33,351 nt of DNA from an uncultured Bacilli bacterium. GTDB lineage: Bacteria > Bacillota_I > Bacilli_A > RF39 > UBA660. A program made the translations under genes and the position numbers. Under the pieces are notes generated by a model that had not been told where the DNA came from, ran no database searches, and saw nothing but the letters and a program-made list of their open reading frames with translations. Shown one piece after another: positions 6,227-18,341 of the stretch. How positions within the stretch are numbered: the first letter of the stretch is position 1; every line of letters starts with the position of its first letter. Where the stretch lies: NCBI GenBank assembly GCA_947629475.1, contig CANRDV010000014.1, forward strand, positions 1-33,351, read 5' to 3'.

Positions 6227-6258
6227 TTAAAAATGGTCGGCATGCCGACCATTTTTAA
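6227..6258. repeat. Perfect 32-bp palindrome, downstream flank of the DUF1016 gene
   Basis: A perfect palindrome centred between 6242 and 6243. Its core GGTCGGCA-TGCCGACC is extended by TTAAAAAT/ATTTTTAA arms. The stop codon of the nuclease gene (6257-6255) lies inside the right arm. As RNA it gives a strong stem ending in U residues, so it can double as a terminator. The same core recurs upstream of the gene at 7344-7361. Confidence 0.9.
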
Positions 6259-7313
6259 GTTTCGCTATCTTCATTTGCTAATTCAAATAATTCTTTTTCT
6301 TCTTTTATTATTTTAATTAATTCTTCTTTAGATGGCATATAAGTTAGATATTTTGAAGCATAAATATTTTTTACATTATCACCTAAAGTCATTTCTACAA
6401 CTGCATCATCTTTGTCGGCACAAAGTAATATTCCAATTGGTTCACTTTCACCCTTCATCATCTGTGTTTTCTTATAATAATTTACATACATTTGCATCTG
6501 ACCAATATCTTGATGCGTTAACTTTCCTATTTTTAAATCAATTATTACAAAACACTTAGCAAGACGATTATAAAATATCAAGTCGGGATAATAGTATTCA
6601 TATCCTATTTTTATTCTTTGCTGATTCGAAACAAATGAAAAACCTCTTCCTAATTCTAATAAAAATTCTGTTAAATGTGATAACAAGGCTTTTTCCAAAT
6701 CTGTTTCTAAATAATTTTTATTTTCTTTTAATCCAACAAATTCAAATATATATGGTGCTTTCAAAAGTTCTTCAGGCGTTTTTTCTATTAAACCTTGCTT
6801 CGATTCTTCAATTATTTTATTTTTATCAGGCGATATTACATATCTATCATATAATTTAGTATTTATTTGCCTTGATAATTCTCGATATCCCCAATTTGAT
6901 TTAATTGCCTCCTCTTGATAAAATTCTCGTTCCTCTTTTCTATCAACTCTTATTAACTCTTGAAGATGTGACCAAGATAACTCAAAAGGTACATCTTCTA
7001 TTATAGGATACAATTCATAAAACTTTCGCATTCTTCTAATACTAACAGGCGAAAAACCACTTCCAAACTCATTAGTAAGCCTTGAAGATAATGCATCAAT
7101 TATCTTTTTTCCATAACCTGATTTTACATCATTAGAGAGTTCATAAGTTGTTTTGCCAACATACCAATAAACCTCTGTCATTGTAACATCAATATTTTTT
7201 AAAACTTTACTACGAGCAAGTAATATTTTATTTTTGATATCATTATAGATACAATCAATATTTAATATTTCTTCATTATTATTTGTTTTTATCAAACTAT
7301 TTTTCTTAGTCAT
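6255..7313 (-). CDS. DUF1016/YhcG-family PD-(D/E)XK nuclease
   Basis: 352 residues. The N-terminal DUF1016 domain (about 20-160) contains EVYWYVGKTTYEL, YGKKIIDALSSRL and SIRRMRKFYELYP, followed by LSWSHLQELI. The C-terminal YhcG nuclease domain (about 190-320) has a complete PD-(D/E)XK signature: Pro243-Asp244 in YYPDLIFYN, Asp259-Leu-Lys261 in IIDLKIGKL, and Gln272 in DIGQMQMYVNYY. The family is widespread and is annotated as a nuclease; its biological role is not established to my knowledge. The ATG follows AGGAGGAG. The stop codon lies within a perfect palindrome whose core is repeated 31 bases upstream of the start. It is only distantly related to the paralogues at 13447 and 14543. Confidence 0.92.
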   Translation of the reverse strand: MTKKNSLIKTNNNEEILNIDCIYNDIKNKILLARSKVLKNIDVTMTEVYWYVGKTTYELSNDVKSGYGKKIIDALSSRLTNEFGSGFSPVSIRRMRKFYELYPIIEDVPFELSWSHLQELIRVDRKEEREFYQEEAIKSNWGYRELSRQINTKLYDRYVISPDKNKIIEESKQGLIEKTPEELLKAPYIFEFVGLKENKNYLETDLEKALLSHLTEFLLELGRGFSFVSNQQRIKIGYEYYYPDLIFYNRLAKCFVIIDLKIGKLTHQDIGQMQMYVNYYKKTQMMKGESEPIGILLCADKDDAVVEMTLGDNVKNIYASKYLTYMPSKEELIKIIKEEKELFELANEDSET

Positions 7314-7343: not shown

Positions 7344-7361
7344 TGGTCGGCATGCCGACCA
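7344..7361. repeat. 18-bp palindrome, upstream flank of the DUF1016 gene
   Basis: TGGTCGGCA followed by TGCCGACCA is perfect and identical in core to the copy at 6227-6258. It begins 12 bases after the recO stop on the minus strand. No T-run follows it in the direction of recO transcription, so it is a poor terminator there. This supports a role other than termination. Confidence 0.88.
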
Positions 7362-13065: not shown

Positions 13066-13085
13066 ACGCTTAACACGTTAAGCGT
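13066..13085. repeat. Perfect inverted repeat, possible operator
   Basis: ACGCTTAAC and GTTAAGCGT are perfect 9-bp inverted repeats separated by AC. No T-run follows on either strand, so it is not a standard terminator. It stands in the 250-base gap between priA and the DUF1016 array, which otherwise shows only the promoter and terminator already listed. Confidence 0.5.
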
Positions 13086-13189: not shown

Positions 13190-13234
13190 TATTTCCCAAA
13201 AAGTGCAGGCAGTGCCTGCACTTTTTGGGAAATA
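13190..13234. repeat. Long palindrome B0 (array edge)
   Basis: A perfect 45-bp palindrome centred on G13212. Outer arms are TATTTCCCAAAAAGTGC and its complement; the inner core is AGGCA-G-TGCCT. It marks the 3' edge of the DUF1016 array, 4 bases from the stop of the deleted remnant gene. Confidence 0.92.
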
Positions 13235-13238
13235 AATC

Positions 13239-13379
13239 TTACACTACTATATATTCTCTCGAAATTATTCTTTTATCACTACAATATTCTATAATAAATT
13301 TGTTATCTTTCTTGCATATAATTATCCCTATTGTTTTATTTTGATTTACCTTTCTTAATTTATTATCAATATAATCCAT
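13239..13379 (-). pseudogene. Internally deleted DUF1016 remnant (46 codons)
   Basis: An open frame with a good AAGGTGG ribosome site encodes Met-Asp joined directly to the last 44 residues of the neighbouring nuclease (from YIDNKLRK to the shared end REYIVV). It fits loss of roughly residues 3-250 of a 294-residue ancestor by deletion at a short TAT identity, keeping the start codon, reading frame and both palindromes. The nuclease active site is gone. It differs from the two intact copies by scattered substitutions, so it is the oldest or most divergent unit. It may still be translated, but I treat it as a remnant. Confidence 0.85.
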
Positions 13380-13396
13380 ACATACCACCTTAATAT

Positions 13397-13443
13397 TTAT
13401 TTCCCAAAAAGTGCAGACAGTGCCTGCACTTTTTGGGAAATAA
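13397..13443. repeat. Long palindrome B1
   Basis: A 47-bp palindrome centred on G13420 with one mismatch (A13417 against C13423). Outer arms match B0, and the inner core is AGACA-G-TGCCT. It lies between the remnant gene and the first intact nuclease gene, 3 bases beyond the latter's stop. Confidence 0.92.
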
Positions 13444-13446
13444 CTC

Positions 13447-14331
13447 TTACACTACTATATATTCCCTCGAGATTATTCTTTTATCACTACAATATTCAAT
13501 AATAAATTTGTTATCTTTCTTACAAATAATTATTCCAATTGTCCTATTTTGATTTATCTTTCTTAAATTATTATCAATATAGTTCATATAAACTTGAATT
13601 TGTCCTATATGACTTTTCATTAAAGGTGTTACTTTTAATTCAACTACTACATAACAATTAAATTCAATGTTATATAAAAGTAAATCTATATAATTATAGA
13701 AGTTCCCTAATTTTATTTTATATTCATTATCAATATAGCAAAAATTATTACCTAATTCTTTTAAGAATCCTGAAATATCTTCTAGGATTAGCTTCTTTAA
13801 AATTATTTCAGATATTTCATTATAATTATTAGAATTCTTAATTAGAATTGGATTCTTTACAAAATCAATTACACTTGTCTCTTCCTTAGCTATTAATTTA
13901 TGTTTAGTATTTTCATCTAATCTTTGATATTCTTGACTTTTAATTTTATCTCTTAATATACGTTTTGAAAGATTTTGTTCTTCACATATTTTTAAATAAT
14001 AATTAATTTCATTTATATCTTTTAAAGAAATTAGTTCTCTATAATGACTCCACGTTAGTTGATCATGCAACTCTACTCCATTTTCTATTACTAAATAAAA
14101 TCTTCGCATATAATTCAAAGAACGAGTTGAATATCCTTTACCTATTTCAATAGTTAACTTCAAAGAATATTCTTTGATTATTCCATCACCATATTTATTA
14201 CCTGCTTCATTTAACATCTTACCTACATTATAATAGGTATTTAAATCTCCAACATTCTTACTATAATCTTTTACTCTTCTATTTATTTCATTATTTAATA
14301 ATTGTTCTTTTATTTCAACATAATAATCCAT
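13447..14331 (-). CDS. DUF1016/YhcG-family PD-(D/E)XK nuclease, array copy 1
   Basis: 294 residues. The DUF1016 N-terminal domain (1-130) contains TYYNVGKMLNEAG, STRSLNYMRRFYLV and LTWSHYRELI. The nuclease domain (about 175-290) has Asp216 in YIDLLLYN, Glu231-Leu-Lys233 in VVELKV and Gln244 in HIGQIQVYMNY, which is a complete PD-(D/E)XK set. The ATG follows AGGAGG. The gene lies between palindromes B1 and B2. Compared with copy 2, residues 1-89 and 206-294 are almost identical, while about 90-205 differ at many sites. DNA of 13472-13726 looks identical to 14568-14822 even at silent positions. The target is unknown. Confidence 0.92.
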   Translation of the reverse strand: MDYYVEIKEQLLNNEINRRVKDYSKNVGDLNTYYNVGKMLNEAGNKYGDGIIKEYSLKLTIEIGKGYSTRSLNYMRRFYLVIENGVELHDQLTWSHYRELISLKDINEINYYLKICEEQNLSKRILRDKIKSQEYQRLDENTKHKLIAKEETSVIDFVKNPILIKNSNNYNEISEIILKKLILEDISGFLKELGNNFCYIDNEYKIKLGNFYNYIDLLLYNIEFNCYVVVELKVTPLMKSHIGQIQVYMNYIDNNLRKINQNRTIGIIICKKDNKFIIEYCSDKRIISREYIVV

Positions 14332-14370
14332 GTATACCTCCTAAATTTATATTTTTTGTATCATTTTACT

Positions 14371-14415
14371 TATTTCCCAAAAAGTGCCGCCAGTGGCGGC
14401 ACTTTTTGGGAAATA
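14371..14415. repeat. Long palindrome B2
   Basis: A perfect 45-bp palindrome centred on G14393. Outer arms are the same as B0; the inner core is CGCCA-G-TGGCG, different from B0 but fully complementary. It lies 39 bases upstream of the start of array copy 1. Confidence 0.92.
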
Positions 14416-14511
14416 TTACTTGCCAACCATTTTCATCATTTTAAATTGTACCTTTTTTAAGCTTATAGCATTTTAATCATAAAAGCAATTGGATTTACAA
14501 AGTACTTTTCC

Positions 14512-14540
14512 AAAAAGGGCAGACAGTGCCTGCCATTTTT
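14512..14540. repeat. Degenerate palindrome B3
   Basis: A shortened copy centred on G14526. The core is AGACA-G-TGCCT as in B1, but the outer arms are altered (AAAAAGGGC against GCCATTTTT), with two mismatches, and the TTTCCC/GGGAAA ends are lost. It lies 2 bases beyond the stop of array copy 2. Confidence 0.8.
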
Positions 14541-14542
14541 CC

Positions 14543-15427
14543 TTACACTACTATGTATTCTCTCGAAATTATTCTTTTATCACTACAATATTCAATAATA
14601 AATTTGTTATCTTTCTTACAAATAATTATTCCAATTGTCCTATTTTGATTTATCTTTCTTAAATTATTATCAATATAGTTCATATAAACTTGAATTTGTC
14701 CTATATGACTTTTCATTAAAGGTGTTACTTTTAATTCAACTACTACATAACAATTAAATTCAATGTTATATAAAAGTAAATCTATATAATTATAGAAGTT
14801 CCCTAATTTTATTTTATATTCACTACCTATAAATGAAAAACTGCTACCTAATTCTTTCATAAAAGATTCAATATCCTCTAGGATTAACTTCTTTAAAATC
14901 TTTTCAGATAGTTCATTATAATTATTAGAATCCTTTATTAAGATTGGATTCTTTACAAAATCAATTACACTTGTCTCTTCCTTAACAATTAATTTATGTT
15001 TAGTATTATCATCTAATCTTTGATATTCTTGATTTTTTATTTTAACTCTTAAAGCACGAAATGATAAGTTATTTTTTTCAGATGTATTTAAATAATAATT
15101 AATTTCATTTATATCATCAAGTTTCAATATTTCGATGTAATGACTCCAAGTTAATTGTTGATGTAACTCTACTCCATTTTCTATTACTAAATAAAATCTT
15201 CGCATATAGTTCAAAGAACGAGTTGAATATCCTTTACCTATTTCAATAGTTAACTTCAAAGAATATTCTTTGATTATTCCATCGCCATATTTATTACCAG
15301 CTTCATTTAACATCTTACCAACATTATAATAAGTATTTAAATCTCCAACATTTTTTCTATAATCTTTTACTCTCTTATTTATTTCATTATTTAATAATTG
15401 TTCTTTTATTTCAACATAATAATCCAT
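14543..15427 (-). CDS. DUF1016/YhcG-family PD-(D/E)XK nuclease, array copy 2
   Basis: 294 residues, collinear with copy 1 without gaps and carrying the same catalytic residues (Asp216, Glu231, Lys233, Gln244). N-terminal residues 1-89 differ at about three positions. The central part (90-205) is clearly diverged (e.g. SHYIEILKLDDINEIN and SFMKELGSSFSFIG), and the C-terminal part is identical to copy 1. This mosaic pattern fits gene conversion of the ends, or selection for change in the middle. The leader and AGGAGG site are almost the same as in copy 1. It is flanked by degenerate palindrome B3 and palindrome B4, and is followed upstream by comEC. Confidence 0.92.
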   Translation of the reverse strand: MDYYVEIKEQLLNNEINKRVKDYRKNVGDLNTYYNVGKMLNEAGNKYGDGIIKEYSLKLTIEIGKGYSTRSLNYMRRFYLVIENGVELHQQLTWSHYIEILKLDDINEINYYLNTSEKNNLSFRALRVKIKNQEYQRLDDNTKHKLIVKEETSVIDFVKNPILIKDSNNYNELSEKILKKLILEDIESFMKELGSSFSFIGSEYKIKLGNFYNYIDLLLYNIEFNCYVVVELKVTPLMKSHIGQIQVYMNYIDNNLRKINQNRTIGIIICKKDNKFIIEYCSDKRIISREYIVV

Positions 15428-15465
15428 ATATACCTCCTAAATTTATATTTTTTGTATCATTTTAC

Positions 15466-15512
15466 TTATTTCCCAAAAAGTGCAGCAGTCTGCTGCACTT
15501 TTTGGGAAATAA
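15466..15512. repeat. Long palindrome B4 (array edge)
   Basis: A perfect 47-bp palindrome centred on T15489. Outer arms match the other copies; the inner core is AGCAG-T-CTGCT, a third core sequence with compensated changes. It lies 26 bases after the comEC stop and 38 bases before the start of array copy 2 on the minus strand. Confidence 0.92.
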
Positions 15513-15538: not shown

Positions 15539-17584
15539 TTATCTATTTACATCATAAGTAATTAATCTATTCTTATTTGTATCAACTTCGATACTACCAT
15601 TAATATCAGTTCTATATATTCTTGAATTACTTAAAGTCTCTAAGACTTCTTCCTTAGGATGTCCATAACGATTATTTAACCCTACTGAAATAAAGGAATA
15701 TTTAGGTTTAATTGTTTCAATAAACCTTTTACTAGAACTAGTATTCGAACCATGGTGTCCTACTTTCAAATAATCTATTTGACCTAAATTATACTTATCT
15801 AAAATATAATCTTCAGAACTTGTAGTAGCATCTCCCATCATTAAAATCTTTTTATCTTTAAATAAAATATATAAAACTAAACTCGAAGCATTTTCATCTT
15901 CATCTATTCTGTTTAACTCTATAATATTTAAATTATTAACTCTCAAACTATCTTGTTCTTTAAAAAAACTATAACTAATATTTTTCTTATCTAATTCATT
16001 AATTAATTTACTTTCCTGATTACTAAGTTCATTTGCATTTAAGAAAACTTGATTAACTTTAAAATTATTAACTAAATAAATACTATCTCCCATATGGTCA
16101 AAATCACCATGGGTTAAAAATAAATAATCTATCTTTCTAATTCCAAGTGACTTTAACATTTCAATAGTATCCTCAGAGACTTGCTTTTGATAAACTCCAC
16201 CTGTATCTATTAAAACAACTTTATTATTACTATAAAATAAACTAGAATCTCCTTGTTTAACATCTATTATCATAAAGAAATCTTTAGGTATTAAAACATT
16301 AATATTAAAATGAATTAATAAAACTAAACTTAAGATAATAAAACCTCTTATTTTCTTATTTAAAATATCTTTGATAATAAATATAATTAATACTAAATAG
16401 ATAATTAAGATAAGAAAGTTCATCTTTTTTAAAATAATAATACCTATTGTTATATTATTTAAAGAAAAAGATATATTATTAAGTAATGTCATAAAACTAT
16501 AAAATAAATTATCTAAAAATGGTAAAAATAAAGTTAATAAAGAAACTGGAAATACTATTAAGTTAAATGCTGGTACAAATAATAAATTATATAAAATACT
16601 AAATAAATTAATTTCATAGTTAAAATAAATATTAAAAGGAATACTTGCTATAAAAGATATTAAAGATATCTTTATAAGTTTTTGAAAATAATTACCAGTT
16701 AATTTATCTCTATTTAAAATTAAAATAAAACTAATACTATAAGAATAAAGAAAACCTTTATGATAAATATAAAATGGATTAATAAAAAGAGTTGTAATAG
16801 TAGTTAGAATAAATAATTTAATAGGACTTAAATTAAGTTTAAATTTTTTATTTAGATATTTAAATATTAAATATAAGTAGACTCTTAAAATAGGAACTCC
16901 AAAGTTAGTTAAAAGTAAATAAAGAAATATAACTATAAATAAAAATAAATGGGATATAGTTTCATTTATTTTTATTTTTTTAAAGATAGAAAGTATAAGA
17001 ATACTTAATATTGTTATATGAAAACTTCCAATTGATAAAAGATGACAGATACCATTTTTTTGATAAGATTTATAAATATCATCATCAAGATAAGAAGTTT
17101 CACCTAGAATAAAGGATTTTAGATATTTTTTTGATTTAAAAGTATCCATATACTTTACTAACTTATCTTTTAATTTATAGATTATATTATTATTTTTTTT
17201 AACTAAAATTATATTACTTGCATTTACTGTATAATATATTTTATTTTGATACAAATACTCTTTATAATTAAAGGTATTTAAAACTGTATTATTCTTAGGT
17301 TCTTCAAGTACTCCTTCAATATATACTTTATCACCTATTGAATAATTACATTTGGTGGTATAAACAATTAATTTTTCTTTTGAGTTAATCGTTAGAGAGT
17401 ATCCATATTTAGTTTCTTTTATTTTTTGGATTACTCCAACAAAACTTGTTTCATAACCTTTATAAATACTCTCGTAACGTATAACTTTAACATTTATAAA
17501 TACATATAGCAAAGTAAATATAATTAAAGAAATGAATAGACTTTTAGACTGTAATTTGGTCTTTAAGTTGTTCAAAAGTAGCAT
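15539..17584 (-). CDS. comEC: ComEC/Rec2 DNA uptake channel protein
   Basis: About 681 residues. The N-terminal membrane segment (about 16-32) and an OB-like extracellular domain are followed by the polytopic Competence domain with many hydrophobic helices (about 150-430). The C-terminal metallo-beta-lactamase-like domain has MIIDVKQGDSSLFYS, FLTHGDFDHMGD, MMGDAT and KVGHHGSNTSSS, so the metal-binding histidines and aspartates are present. ComEC is the inner-membrane channel for transforming DNA. The start overlaps comEA by about 40 bases. ATG 17584 is preferred over GTG 17596, but the choice is uncertain. Upstream comEA and the pilin gene support a natural-transformation role; the DUF1016 array lies directly downstream. 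Confidence 0.95.
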   Translation of the reverse strand: MLLLNNLKTKLQSKSLFISLIIFTLLYVFINVKVIRYESIYKGYETSFVGVIQKIKETKYGYSLTINSKEKLIVYTTKCNYSIGDKVYIEGVLEEPKNNTVLNTFNYKEYLYQNKIYYTVNASNIILVKKNNNIIYKLKDKLVKYMDTFKSKKYLKSFILGETSYLDDDIYKSYQKNGICHLLSIGSFHITILSILILSIFKKIKINETISHLFLFIVIFLYLLLTNFGVPILRVYLYLIFKYLNKKFKLNLSPIKLFILTTITTLFINPFYIYHKGFLYSYSISFILILNRDKLTGNYFQKLIKISLISFIASIPFNIYFNYEINLFSILYNLLFVPAFNLIVFPVSLLTLFLPFLDNLFYSFMTLLNNISFSLNNITIGIIILKKMNFLILIIYLVLIIFIIKDILNKKIRGFIILSLVLLIHFNINVLIPKDFFMIIDVKQGDSSLFYSNNKVVLIDTGGVYQKQVSEDTIEMLKSLGIRKIDYLFLTHGDFDHMGDSIYLVNNFKVNQVFLNANELSNQESKLINELDKKNISYSFFKEQDSLRVNNLNIIELNRIDEDENASSLVLYILFKDKKILMMGDATTSSEDYILDKYNLGQIDYLKVGHHGSNTSSSKRFIETIKPKYSFISVGLNNRYGHPKEEVLETLSNSRIYRTDINGSIEVDTNKNRLITYDVNR

Positions 17585-18341
17585 CTCCAATTCCACTTAC
17601 TTTTTTGATATCTTCAATGGTTTGGAAGTTTCCGTTTTTAGTCCGATAGTCTACAATAGCTTTTGCTTTAGCATCCCCTATTCGAGGAAGAGCCGTTAAT
17701 TCTTTAACTGATGCTGTATTAATATTTATTTTTGATGAAACATTGGAATTTGAAGTAGTATCAGAAGTTTGGTCTTTATTATCACTTTTGATATTAGTAT
17801 CCTTCAAAGTTTCATCTTTAATAACGGTTTTATCAGGAATATTTGTAATTATATCCTTATTACTATTAACAAAGCAAGCGTCATTCTTAACTTTATCATT
17901 ACAAATAGTCTCTTCCTTGGTATTTTTAACAGGATTTAAATTATAGGCTTTAATTTCATCTTGTGAATAAACAATGATAACCATGCCATCTCTTAATTCC
18001 ATACTTAGGTTAAGAAGAGAGGTATCTCCACTCTCCTTAATCCCACCTGCTAAATTAATTGCATCTACTACTCTCTTACCTTTATCAAGTGAGTAAACTC
18101 CAGGAACCATAACTTCTCCTTTAACATCAACATAATAATGTTCTATTTCCGTTTTGGTTTCTTTAGAACTACTACCTGATTCTTTAAGTAAATTTTGATA
18201 AACTACACTTTCAGTTTTATAACTATTCTTATTTAGAAACAAGATAGTCATAGTTAACATAACTAAAAGTAGTGAACTAATTACAATTAATTTTCTTTTA
18301 TTTTCTAAAAGAAATATTTTAACAGTATTTAACTTATCCAT
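17544..18341 (-). CDS. comEA: ComEA competence DNA receptor
   Basis: 265 residues, somewhat longer than Bacillus ComEA because of a Ser/Thr/Asn/Asp-rich linker. An N-terminal membrane anchor (about 16-34) is followed by an SLBB-like domain (about 66-125: YYVDVKGEVMVPGVYSL, VVDAINLAGGI). The C-terminal double helix-hairpin-helix (about 203-265) contains ININTASVKELTALPRIGDA and VSGIGDATFEQLKD. ComEA binds incoming double-stranded DNA outside the membrane and passes it to ComEC. Its GGAGG site lies inside the end of the coiled-coil gene upstream, which it overlaps by 8 bases. It overlaps comEC downstream, so the three genes are coupled. Confidence 0.95.
   Translation of the reverse strand: MDKLNTVKIFLLENKRKLIVISSLLLVMLTMTILFLNKNSYKTESVVYQNLLKESGSSSKETKTEIEHYYVDVKGEVMVPGVYSLDKGKRVVDAINLAGGIKESGDTSLLNLSMELRDGMVIIVYSQDEIKAYNLNPVKNTKEETICNDKVKNDACFVNSNKDIITNIPDKTVIKDETLKDTNIKSDNKDQTSDTTSNSNVSSKININTASVKELTALPRIGDAKAKAIVDYRTKNGNFQTIEDIKKVSGIGDATFEQLKDQITV

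Follow-up and report, generated by a model that had tools for sequence, protein, structure and literature searches.

DUF1016/YhcG proteins as probable site-specific nucleases paired with a palindrome carried in or beside their own gene

Introduction

In B. subtilis, the parS site sits inside spo0J, which provides a precedent for a recognition site within the gene of its own reader. The specificity of ParB lies in residues on the three helices that contact parS (PMC7383237). REP sequences are short palindromes tied to a single protein family, the RAYTs (TnpA_REP), whose genes are flanked by the repeats; RAYTs are HUH transposase-type proteins that act on single-strand secondary structures, and REPs occur as many dispersed copies (PMC8266576, PMC6006769). 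Rickettsia palindromic elements (RPEs) are ~100-150 nt long and insert into many genes, RNAs and spacers (PMC4316617). Homing endonucleases and meganucleases have very long sites and are single-gene units on mobile DNA. Here, we relate these systems to DUF1016/YhcG, a defence candidate with hitherto no settled role, whose members occur in archaea and across bacteria, E. coli K-12 among them. Our starting point was a contig of 33,351 nucleotides from an uncultured Bacilli bacterium (CANRDV010000014.1, assembly GCA_947629475.1), which we refer to in its entirety as the window.

Results

The window holds a tandem DUF1016 array at 13190-15512 and a third, separate DUF1016 gene, with palindromes at each:

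6227-6258: palindrome over the stop of the gene at 6255-7313; core TGGTCGGCATGCCGACCA at 6234-6251
6255-7313, minus strand: third DUF1016 gene (352 aa, long class), flanked on each side by a palindrome unlike those of the array
7344-7361: the same core TGGTCGGCATGCCGACCA, identical, 30 bp upstream of the gene at 6255-7313
13190-13234: array-end palindrome; core GTGCAGGCAGTGCCTGCAC; terminator-like, with a T run on the minus strand
13239-13379, minus strand: DUF1016 remnant with an internal deletion, its first codons fused in frame to C-terminal codons
13397-13443: palindrome 3 bp past the stop of the gene at 13447-14331; core GTGCAGACAGTGCCTGCAC
13447-14331, minus strand: second tandem DUF1016 gene, 294 aa, 89% identical to that at 14543-15427
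14371-14415: flanking palindrome 39 bp upstream of the gene at 13447-14331; core GTGCCGCCAGTGGCGGCAC at 14384-14402
~14505-14540: decayed palindrome copy 2 bp past the stop of the gene at 14543-15427
14543-15427, minus strand: DUF1016/YhcG gene, 294 aa, the first of two intact tandem copies; ParB/Noc-like HTH at residues ~1-139 and PD-(D/E)XK nuclease at ~167-294
15466-15512: flanking palindrome 38 bp upstream of the gene at 14543-15427; core GTGCAGCAGTCTGCTGCAC at 15480-15498

Four of the array palindromes (13190-13234, 13397-13443, 14371-14415 and 15466-15512) form dyads of 45-47 bp that are perfect or nearly so, with one mismatch in that at 13397-13443. Their arm, TTTCCCAAAAAGTGC, has nine matches in the window with up to two mismatches, compared with 0.13 expected by chance; when the entire 1.72 Mb assembly was scanned, allowing one mismatch, the arm was confined to the array locus, and the palindromes are thus not the genome-wide terminators that the original prediction had named as the alternative. 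That prediction described tandem DUF1016 units delimited by five palindromes, and the units and palindromes are real, although the fifth copy (~14505-14540) is decayed; the palindromes lie 2-5 bp from the stops and 38-39 bp ahead of the two intact starts, as had been claimed, and the deleted gene copy is the remnant at 13239-13379. The gene at 6255-7313 and the in-gene palindromes of homologues had been overlooked. The same locus in a sister genome (G295) has one unit with three flanking palindromes and none in the gene, and its counterpart of the decayed copy is intact, at 41 bp. Arm matches in two other genomes (G314 and G294) lack a dyad and lie away from comEC, priA and DUF1016, and were set aside.

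The outer arms of the palindromes, ATTTCCC...GGGAAAT, are halves of what we take to be the Noc-binding site. The genome shows scarcely any enrichment of that site (seven matches with up to two mismatches, compared with three for the control, and none exact), and we therefore treat the likeness as a coincidence. With a type II restriction-modification system in mind, we inspected the list of ORFs by eye and noticed no methyltransferase beside the array.

Both intact array genes match DUF1016_N and YhcG_C far over the cut-off (PF17761 and PF06250, each above its curated cut-off), which makes them members of the DUF1016/YhcG family. Both have the catalytic E-D-ExK residues (E175, D216, E231 and K233), of which E175, D216 and K233 are invariant in alignment A3. 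HTH_ParB (PF17762) matched 15 of 40 DUF1016 members (best E 8.8e-4), with one gene passing Pfam's own cut-off for that family, and hhalign of DUF1016_N against ParB gave an E of 0.0011 over 68 columns, at a probability of only 21%. When the structure of the N-domain was compared, nearly all rows were Noc/ParB chains, with Z up to 9.5, a middling value of a kind common among helical domains; the window model scored 9.5 over 113 residues against the Noc-NBS complex 6y93, 9.4 against 7nfu and 9.1 against Spo0J 1vz0. These profiles and models suggest that DUF1016_N resembles the ParB/Noc DNA-binding domain as a remote homologue rather than as a member of the ParB family. The Pfam families listed for the 40 members include no match to an N-terminal CTPase of the ParB/sulfiredoxin type, and DUF1016 models are helical ahead of the HTH. 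The C-domain resembles the NucS/EndoMS endonuclease, with Z of 10.8 to EndoMS and a weaker 6.6 to the Holliday junction resolvase Hjc (1gef).

The original prediction also held that the nuclease is always packaged with flanking palindromes. We examined 110 genes of the closest class, picked by protein similarity; in 107, a 9-1-9 bp palindrome occupies the same codon position with at least seven of the nine pairs formed, and in 50 it is perfect. The remaining three are those of the window, where palindromes flank the gene instead. When arms were swapped between genes as a control, 16% reached seven pairs. Compensatory changes were found at seven of the nine pairs (28 sequences), with a covariation score that none of 500 shuffles matched, and the in-gene 19-mers are 59% G+C, compared with 22% for the window genes. 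E. coli yhcG also carries an in-gene palindrome. Moreover, an unbiased scan of 84,980 genomes with the motif AATTNNNCAGACANTGTCTGNNNAATT gave 119 matches, against ~0.2 expected by simple arithmetic; 81 lie inside DUF1016 ORFs, in organisms ranging from Proteobacteria to archaea, and a further eight lie within 400 bp of one. Among the 60 in-gene matches listed, 59 share one reading frame. The matches outside DUF1016 ORFs are mainly intergenic.

By hand count, 17 relatives have ~71 distinct matches to the palindrome model, all but ~2 of which are in or directly beside a DUF1016 gene or remnant. The pairing of repeat and nuclease is supported in substance, but the flanking arrangement is not general: in most homologues the palindrome lies within the ORF and none flanks the gene. 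Homologues without flanking palindromes were to have counted against the pairing, a test that is satisfied literally but misses the in-gene copies. For two of 20 genes from the genus (L358 and L372), no palindrome was found, whether inside the ORF or up to 200 bp away, and a peptide-pattern search of viral contigs found no relatives. No in-gene palindrome is reported for DUF1016 in PMC4316617 or PMC1189080, and a search by title of open-licence papers on YhcG or PDDEXK nucleases and palindromes returned nothing on a DUF1016 palindrome.

Palindrome bases covary with protein residues. Across 132 genes, the maximum MIp was 0.89, compared with 0.24 in permutations; the top columns were 63, 64, 65, 68 and 69 of the recognition helix, followed by 92/93 and 117/121, and these fall on the three helices that contact parS in ParB (PMC7383237). 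Palindrome position 8 is G together with a K or R residue in 75 of 76 genes. Nearest neighbours by contact residues predicted 5.7 of 7 bases, compared with 3.0 for the nuclease domain, 3.0 for random choice and at most 3.6 for 200 random column sets (partial Mantel 0.64, reached in 0 of 1000); the contact columns were chosen on data that were reused in this test, the controls being permutation and genes that had not been used in training. For genes outside the fit, a fitted residue-to-base code ranked the flanking palindromes of 13447-14331 and 14543-15427 each second of 67, and the E. coli palindrome first of 67 for its own protein. These two array genes differ at predicted DNA-contact residues 98 (R rather than I in 13447-14331) and 123 (K rather than F). 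The palindrome of 6255-7313 ranked fourth of 67 for that gene and below the median when scored for the two array genes. The code fails for some homologues (rank 31 of 67 in Segatella, 21 in Chryseobacterium, and 54 for G221B and G301B), and is therefore local to the clade. The covariation and the own-palindrome ranks together make it very likely that each DUF1016 protein reads the palindrome of its own gene. Since each gene carries its own version, protein and target appear to have changed in step across bacterial and archaeal lineages.

Discussion

We propose, with a probability of roughly 0.75, that DUF1016/YhcG is a site-specific DNA-binding nuclease whose cognate palindrome travels with its gene. 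A ParB/Noc-type HTH, probably dimeric, is fused to a NucS-like PD-(D/E)XK nuclease and would read a palindrome of 19-27 bp. This palindrome normally lies inside the ORF, in the codons of a loop between HTH helices; in the window's lineage the ORF lacks it and copies flank the gene. Palindrome and protein would evolve as a single specificity unit, with unlike pairs coexisting as paralogues. The computed support consists of the fixed position, compensatory change, cross-phylum association, domain homology and base-residue covariation, from which we infer binding in the cell and the role of that binding. Because the site is so long, the only likely targets in a cell would be its own gene, further copies of that gene, and DNA with the same unit. 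The first role of binding may be self-regulation, with the site in the gene or 16-40 bp upstream serving as an operator and tether that would keep a dangerous nuclease low; the nuclease might then act on further DNA molecules in which this palindrome occurs, leading to homing or exclusion. We give autoregulation via the palindrome even odds, and cutting at the palindrome, or by means of it, slightly lower ones. An active nuclease whose own gene contains its site would be paradoxical, unless its cutting is under control or the site serves solely as a tether or operator.

The proposed system shares with ParB/Spo0J-parS and Noc-NBS its type of HTH (by sequence, profile and fold), a palindromic site, and specificity residues on the same helices (PMC7383237). 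It differs in that a nuclease appears to take the place of the other parts of ParB. Its sites, moreover, are longer and hypervariable and keep a set location in or next to the gene of their reader, with no link to segregation seen. The REP-RAYT analogy drawn in the original prediction holds for layout and breaks down for the proteins: we found no Y1 transposase match, the protein beside the palindromes being an HTH joined to PD-(D/E)XK, and neither the reader domain nor the nuclease is related to RAYT. In addition, the DUF1016 palindrome lies inside the gene and has almost no dispersed copies (~2 of 71 model matches away from DUF1016 in the 17 genomes). RPEs are likewise in-frame palindromes within coding sequence; by contrast, the DUF1016 palindrome is 19-27 bp, occupies one codon position, is matched to the protein and is found mainly in one gene family (81 of 119 motif matches) rather than in many unrelated genes. 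NucS/EndoMS and archaeal Holliday junction resolvases have the same nuclease-domain fold, but recognise mismatches or four-way junctions and are without a ParB-type domain.

A homing-like unit, whose nuclease cuts the palindrome in gene-less DNA so that repair copies the gene in and leaves palindromes at the junctions, is a possible but doubtful alternative. Tandem arrays, remnants, and carriage on plasmids and phages are consistent with it, as are possible empty sites that hold the palindrome, a feature shared with homing endonucleases. E. coli AREA_505 has no yhcG, and its gltD-nanQ site holds AATTCGCCAGACAGTGTCTGGCGAATT, identical to an in-gene yhcG palindrome of other strains, with the left flank of the K-12 palindrome after gltD and a right flank resembling that of the palindrome before nanQ; this picture, from the one empty strain inspected, also arises by deletion between two palindromes. 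A solo palindrome near comEC in one genome (G143) shares its core with the palindrome beside the comEC-linked DUF1016 gene of another (G219). Homing nucleases, however, have another combination of domains and are not expected to retain an intact site in their own gene, whereas 107 of 110 DUF1016 genes carry the palindrome. Slightly less probable is an immunity, exclusion or addiction module, in which the palindrome marks self or tethers the nuclease, and cleavage is set off by DNA with the same unit or when the unit is lost. PADLOC lists DUF1016 as a candidate defence family (PDC-S02), some plasmid homologues adjoin DNA methyltransferases, and the copies sampled within a genome, though closer in protein than between-genome pairs, never share a half-site (0 of 128 pairs, compared with 3.5 expected). 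This orthogonality is only mildly significant (p ~0.03), no trigger or partner was found, and the palindrome is too long to turn up by chance in unrelated phages.

Ordinary bidirectional termination between tandem genes is the least probable explanation that we weighed: some window palindromes are terminator-like (nine partly overlapping calls in the region, compared with 0.3 in shuffles), and 13190-13234 has a GC stem with a good T run at a gene end, a pattern that the other palindromes match poorly; but the arm is absent elsewhere in the genome, copies lie upstream of starts, homologues have the palindrome in the ORF, and its bases covary with residues. Terminators alone do not explain the palindromes, and a secondary terminator role for 13190-13234 is possible. 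It is almost as improbable that the protein reads an mRNA hairpin as RNA, or that the covariation arises within the protein, from contact of the HTH with the loop that the palindrome encodes. Where it lies in the gene, the palindrome is transcribed and should fold, and the encoded loop adjoins the HTH; yet coding-strand mismatches show no preference for G-U over A-C (5 and 17 in the in-gene scan, 25 and 31 in the clade set), non-coding flanking palindromes follow the same residue-base code, and the covarying residues sit on the helices with which ParB touches duplex DNA. The palindromes' matches to RNA families were hairpin look-alikes, all under the cut-off. A defence module that reads hairpins, as originally suggested, is unlikely because individual bases of the palindrome covary with a surface of the ParB type, which reads duplex DNA.

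The preferred reading, a nuclease that travels with its own site, gives DUF1016/YhcG a concrete and cheaply testable predicted activity, namely binding, and perhaps cutting, of a stated sequence. The residue-to-base code rests on more than 100 natural protein-site pairs, and such pairs offer abundant natural material for the study of protein-DNA specificity and might supply rare-cutting nucleases. The pairing of a DUF1016 gene with its own target also raises the question of how cells tolerate a nuclease with a site in its own gene. On balance, we favour the broader view that DUF1016 proteins are pan-prokaryotic self-addressed nucleases, in which the pair of gene and target would diversify like incompatibility or immunity groups and may govern its own spread, exclusion or control.

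A palindrome lies within most DUF1016 genes of the family

The original prediction proposed that DUF1016 (YhcG) nuclease genes are always packaged with flanking palindromes. For the array itself the tandem layout was borne out, with two intact genes, one deleted copy and five palindromes, four of them intact (45-47 bp) and one decayed. A third gene, the last in this list, had been overlooked:

13239-13379, DUF1016 remnant within the array (13190-15512)
13447-14331, minus strand, DUF1016 gene (294 aa)
14543-15427, minus strand, DUF1016 gene (294 aa)
6255-7313, minus strand, third DUF1016 gene (352 aa), with a different palindrome, TGGTCGGCATGCCGACCA, on either side

The array's palindrome arm has nine matches in the window (0.13 expected by chance), and a search of the whole 1.72 Mb assembly found it confined to the array. 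The four intact palindromes have the outer 17 bp TATTTCCCAAAAAGTGC in common, while their inner bases vary and, with few exceptions, do so symmetrically (GTGCAGGCA; GTGCAGACA, with one mismatch; GTGCCGCCA; GTGCAGCAG). Their outer arms, ATTTCCC...GGGAAAT, are the two halves of what we take to be the Noc-binding site, here separated by a 19-mer core plus A5/T5; this presumed site is hardly enriched in the window's genome. A separate hairpin, ACGCTTAACACGTTAAGCGT, lies between the array and priA (13066-13085) and is conserved, in a similar position, in several members of the genus (loci L351, L352 and L355).

DUF1016 homologues occur in 194 of 291 genomes of the window's family, many in tandem. 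Around the first 29 homologue loci scanned there were few flanking palindromes; instead, we unexpectedly found a palindrome within the ORF, at about codons 84-89, immediately ahead of a conserved (L/I)-x-W-S-H-Y and in the context aaaa[N9 N N9']aatt. In 110 test genes picked solely on protein similarity, at least seven of the nine pairs at this exact position were complementary in 107 genes, at least eight in 95 and all nine in 50, whereas when arms were exchanged between genes 16% reached seven pairs and 2% reached nine. The only genes of this set without the in-gene palindrome were the three in the window. Sequences are diverse (86 distinct 9-base 5' arms among 132 palindromes with at least seven pairs, from the 110-gene set and an extra batch), and the 19-mers have a G+C content of 59%, against 22% for the window's genes. 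Among 28 in-gene palindromes, 97.6% of pair cells were complementary, both sides had changed in seven of nine pairs, and none of 500 shuffles matched the covariation score. When 17 relatives were searched with a covariance model built on the in-gene palindrome, there were about 71 distinct matches (E <=0.001, counted by hand), and all but about two fall within or immediately next to DUF1016 genes or their remnants. The predicted pairing of palindrome and gene thus stands, but the palindrome is not always a flanking one.

Comparison of relatives indicates that palindromes may lie inside the gene, next to it or both, and that the tandem array in the window is probably younger than the split from the sister genome G295. 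The comEC-DUF1016-priA locus is shared by G295, where it holds one DUF1016 gene (94% identical) that lacks the in-gene palindrome and has three flanking ones; one of these corresponds to the decayed copy in the window but is intact. In the window's genus, G221 has one palindrome in the gene and three upstream, and most other members have it within the gene; G013 and G219, from other genera of the family, have palindromes both within and beside it. Two of 20 genus genes (L358 and L372) have a palindrome neither in nor beside them, and one more (L355) was unscored, its frame being broken. In several genera DUF1016 immediately follows comEC (window, comEC at 15539-17596; L015, L073, L074, L352, L355, L356, L363), at what is either an old locus or an insertion hot spot.

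Palindrome bases covary with residues of a ParB-like domain

We calculated mutual information with average-product correction for 132 genes, excluding palindrome-coded columns and numbering residues by a trimmed reference (L039). The top pair, residue 117 with position 3, scored 0.88-0.89, against a maximum of 0.24 in 20 permutations; further peaks were 65-7, 68-8, 92-4, 69-5, 121-4, 63-6 and 64-8. Among the classes listed, pairings were near-deterministic: K/R68 with G8 (75/76 genes), R65 with G7 (72/72), T65 with T7 (31/32), V/I117 with A3 (77/82), K/R117 with C3 (34/34) and R/K69 with C5 (64/67). Nearest neighbours by contact residues had 5.7 of 7 site bases in common, compared with 3.0 for the nuclease domain and 3.0 at random, and the partial correlation between contact residues and site was 0.64 (as high in 0 of 1000 permutations). 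Linkage does not account for the covariation: local variable non-contact columns gave 3.7, and none of 200 random column sets exceeded 3.6.

Among 40 diverse DUF1016 proteins, 15 show a match to the Pfam ParB HTH model (E as low as 8.8e-4), and one gene, L261, exceeds Pfam's own cut-off; profile-profile comparison with ten ParB-type proteins aligned 68 columns (E 0.0011, stated probability 21%). Predicted models of two DUF1016 proteins had mean pLDDT values of 81 and 78. Residues 1-138 of the window protein's model matched the Noc DNA-binding domain in its site complex (6y93; Z 9.5, rmsd 2.9, 113 residues), Noc 7nfu (Z 9.4), Spo0J 1vz0 (9.1) and ParB 7bnr (9.0); the only unrelated rows were Raf1 (8.3 and 6.5). 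The C-domain, in the L088 model, matches NucS/EndoMS (Z 10.8), in agreement with the earlier assignment of the family to PD-(D/E)XK (PMC1189080). In that model the palindrome-coded stretch (residues 97-105) is predicted to be mostly a loop joining two HTH-domain helices. ParB helices alpha4, alpha6 and alpha8 contact parS, with S172, R173, N178 and R204 as named contacts (PMC7383237); our covarying clusters correspond to these helices, and by our own mapping through the profile alignment reference residues 63, 64, 69 and 92 fall on those four residues.

For genes outside the fit, the residue-base code placed the flanking palindrome second of 67 for each of the two array genes and fourth for gene 6255-7313, and it ranked the palindromes of E. 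coli, Glaesserella and Burkholderia 1, 2 and 3; it failed on several others. The array paralogues differ at two predicted contact residues, 98 and 123 (reference 92 and 117), and gene 13447-14331 has K at 123 and C3 in its upstream palindrome, matching the code's prediction. A natural specificity-switch pair, L360 in G294 and L373 in G295, combines SVREL with CAGACA and SKREL with CAGCCA. Their HTH regions hardly differ, and the change from V to K at reference 117 goes with A to C at palindrome position 3.

The arrangement is widespread

E. coli K-12 yhcG has three in-frame palindromes (two imperfect) at the matching protein region and another 16 bp beyond its stop codon; in other strains the gene contains one or two, with different arms. 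A palindrome also lies at roughly the corresponding position in plasmid-borne homologues from Burkholderia, Segatella, Glaesserella, Pseudanabaena, Arthrobacter, Chryseobacterium and a Rickettsiales bacterium. Scanning one genome for each of 84,980 species with AATTNNNCAGACANTGTCTGNNNAATT matched at least 116 stretches, where we calculate about 0.2 by chance (20 fixed bases, 257 Gb). Among the matches listed, 81 of 119 genomic occurrences lie within DUF1016 ORFs and eight more within 400 bp; hosts include Bacteroidota, Bacillota, Pseudomonadota, Acidobacteriota, Planctomycetota and several archaea. All three outer pairs are complementary in 59 of the 85 in-gene matches listed (genomes and viruses), with 5 expected by shuffling. 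The remaining occurrences listed are mostly intergenic, several adjoining genes that by eye are RhuM-, AbiEii-, AlbA_2- or restriction-like. BRO-N-like and DinD-like genes (by eye; L071:4530-5390 and L084:871-1251) also have in-ORF palindromes (AACTGCACGAAAAAATCGTGCAGTT; TAACCATTTTGTTGAGTTCAACAAAATGGTTA), and the theme of a reader with its own palindrome may extend to such families. Short tandem palindrome clusters occur in what looks like a DUF1016 fragment, where they are in frame (L101:2079-2666), and in an apparently intergenic stretch (L138:5932-6012).

Possible consequences of palindrome recognition

We predict, with a probability of roughly 0.9, that each DUF1016 protein recognises the palindrome of its own gene. 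The palindrome is predicted to work as DNA, because non-coding flanking copies obey the residue-base code and mismatches have no G-U preference (in-gene scan matches and clade set). From such recognition we infer several consequences. Since a site with at least 14 specified bases has less than one chance occurrence per genome, the relevant targets would be the gene, its copies and DNA with the same palindrome unit. A site within the gene, or 16-40 bp upstream, would suit autorepression or tethering of the protein. Like units may also exclude each other, as hinted by the absence of common half-sites from all 128 pairs of sampled copies within one genome (3.5 expected, p ~0.03).

The variable gltD-nanQ segment of E. 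coli (gltF-yhcG) is palindrome-bounded in K-12, and one yhcG-less strain carries just one palindrome, whose flanks are hybrid. Palindromes at this locus are:

L050:2457-2483, palindrome
L065:2009-2033, palindrome
L044:6971-6995, palindrome

In that strain, AREA_505, the solo palindrome is identical to an in-gene yhcG palindrome of other strains, and its outer flanks resemble those of the two that bound the K-12 segment. It could be either a target for homing or the scar of a deletion.

In the open-licence literature, which most subscription journals lie outside, we found no description of a cognate palindrome within DUF1016 genes. The ParB-type HTH and the restriction-enzyme-like fold are already known, but we know of no system with this arrangement, a nuclease family that usually carries its own matched, predicted recognition site within its coding sequence.
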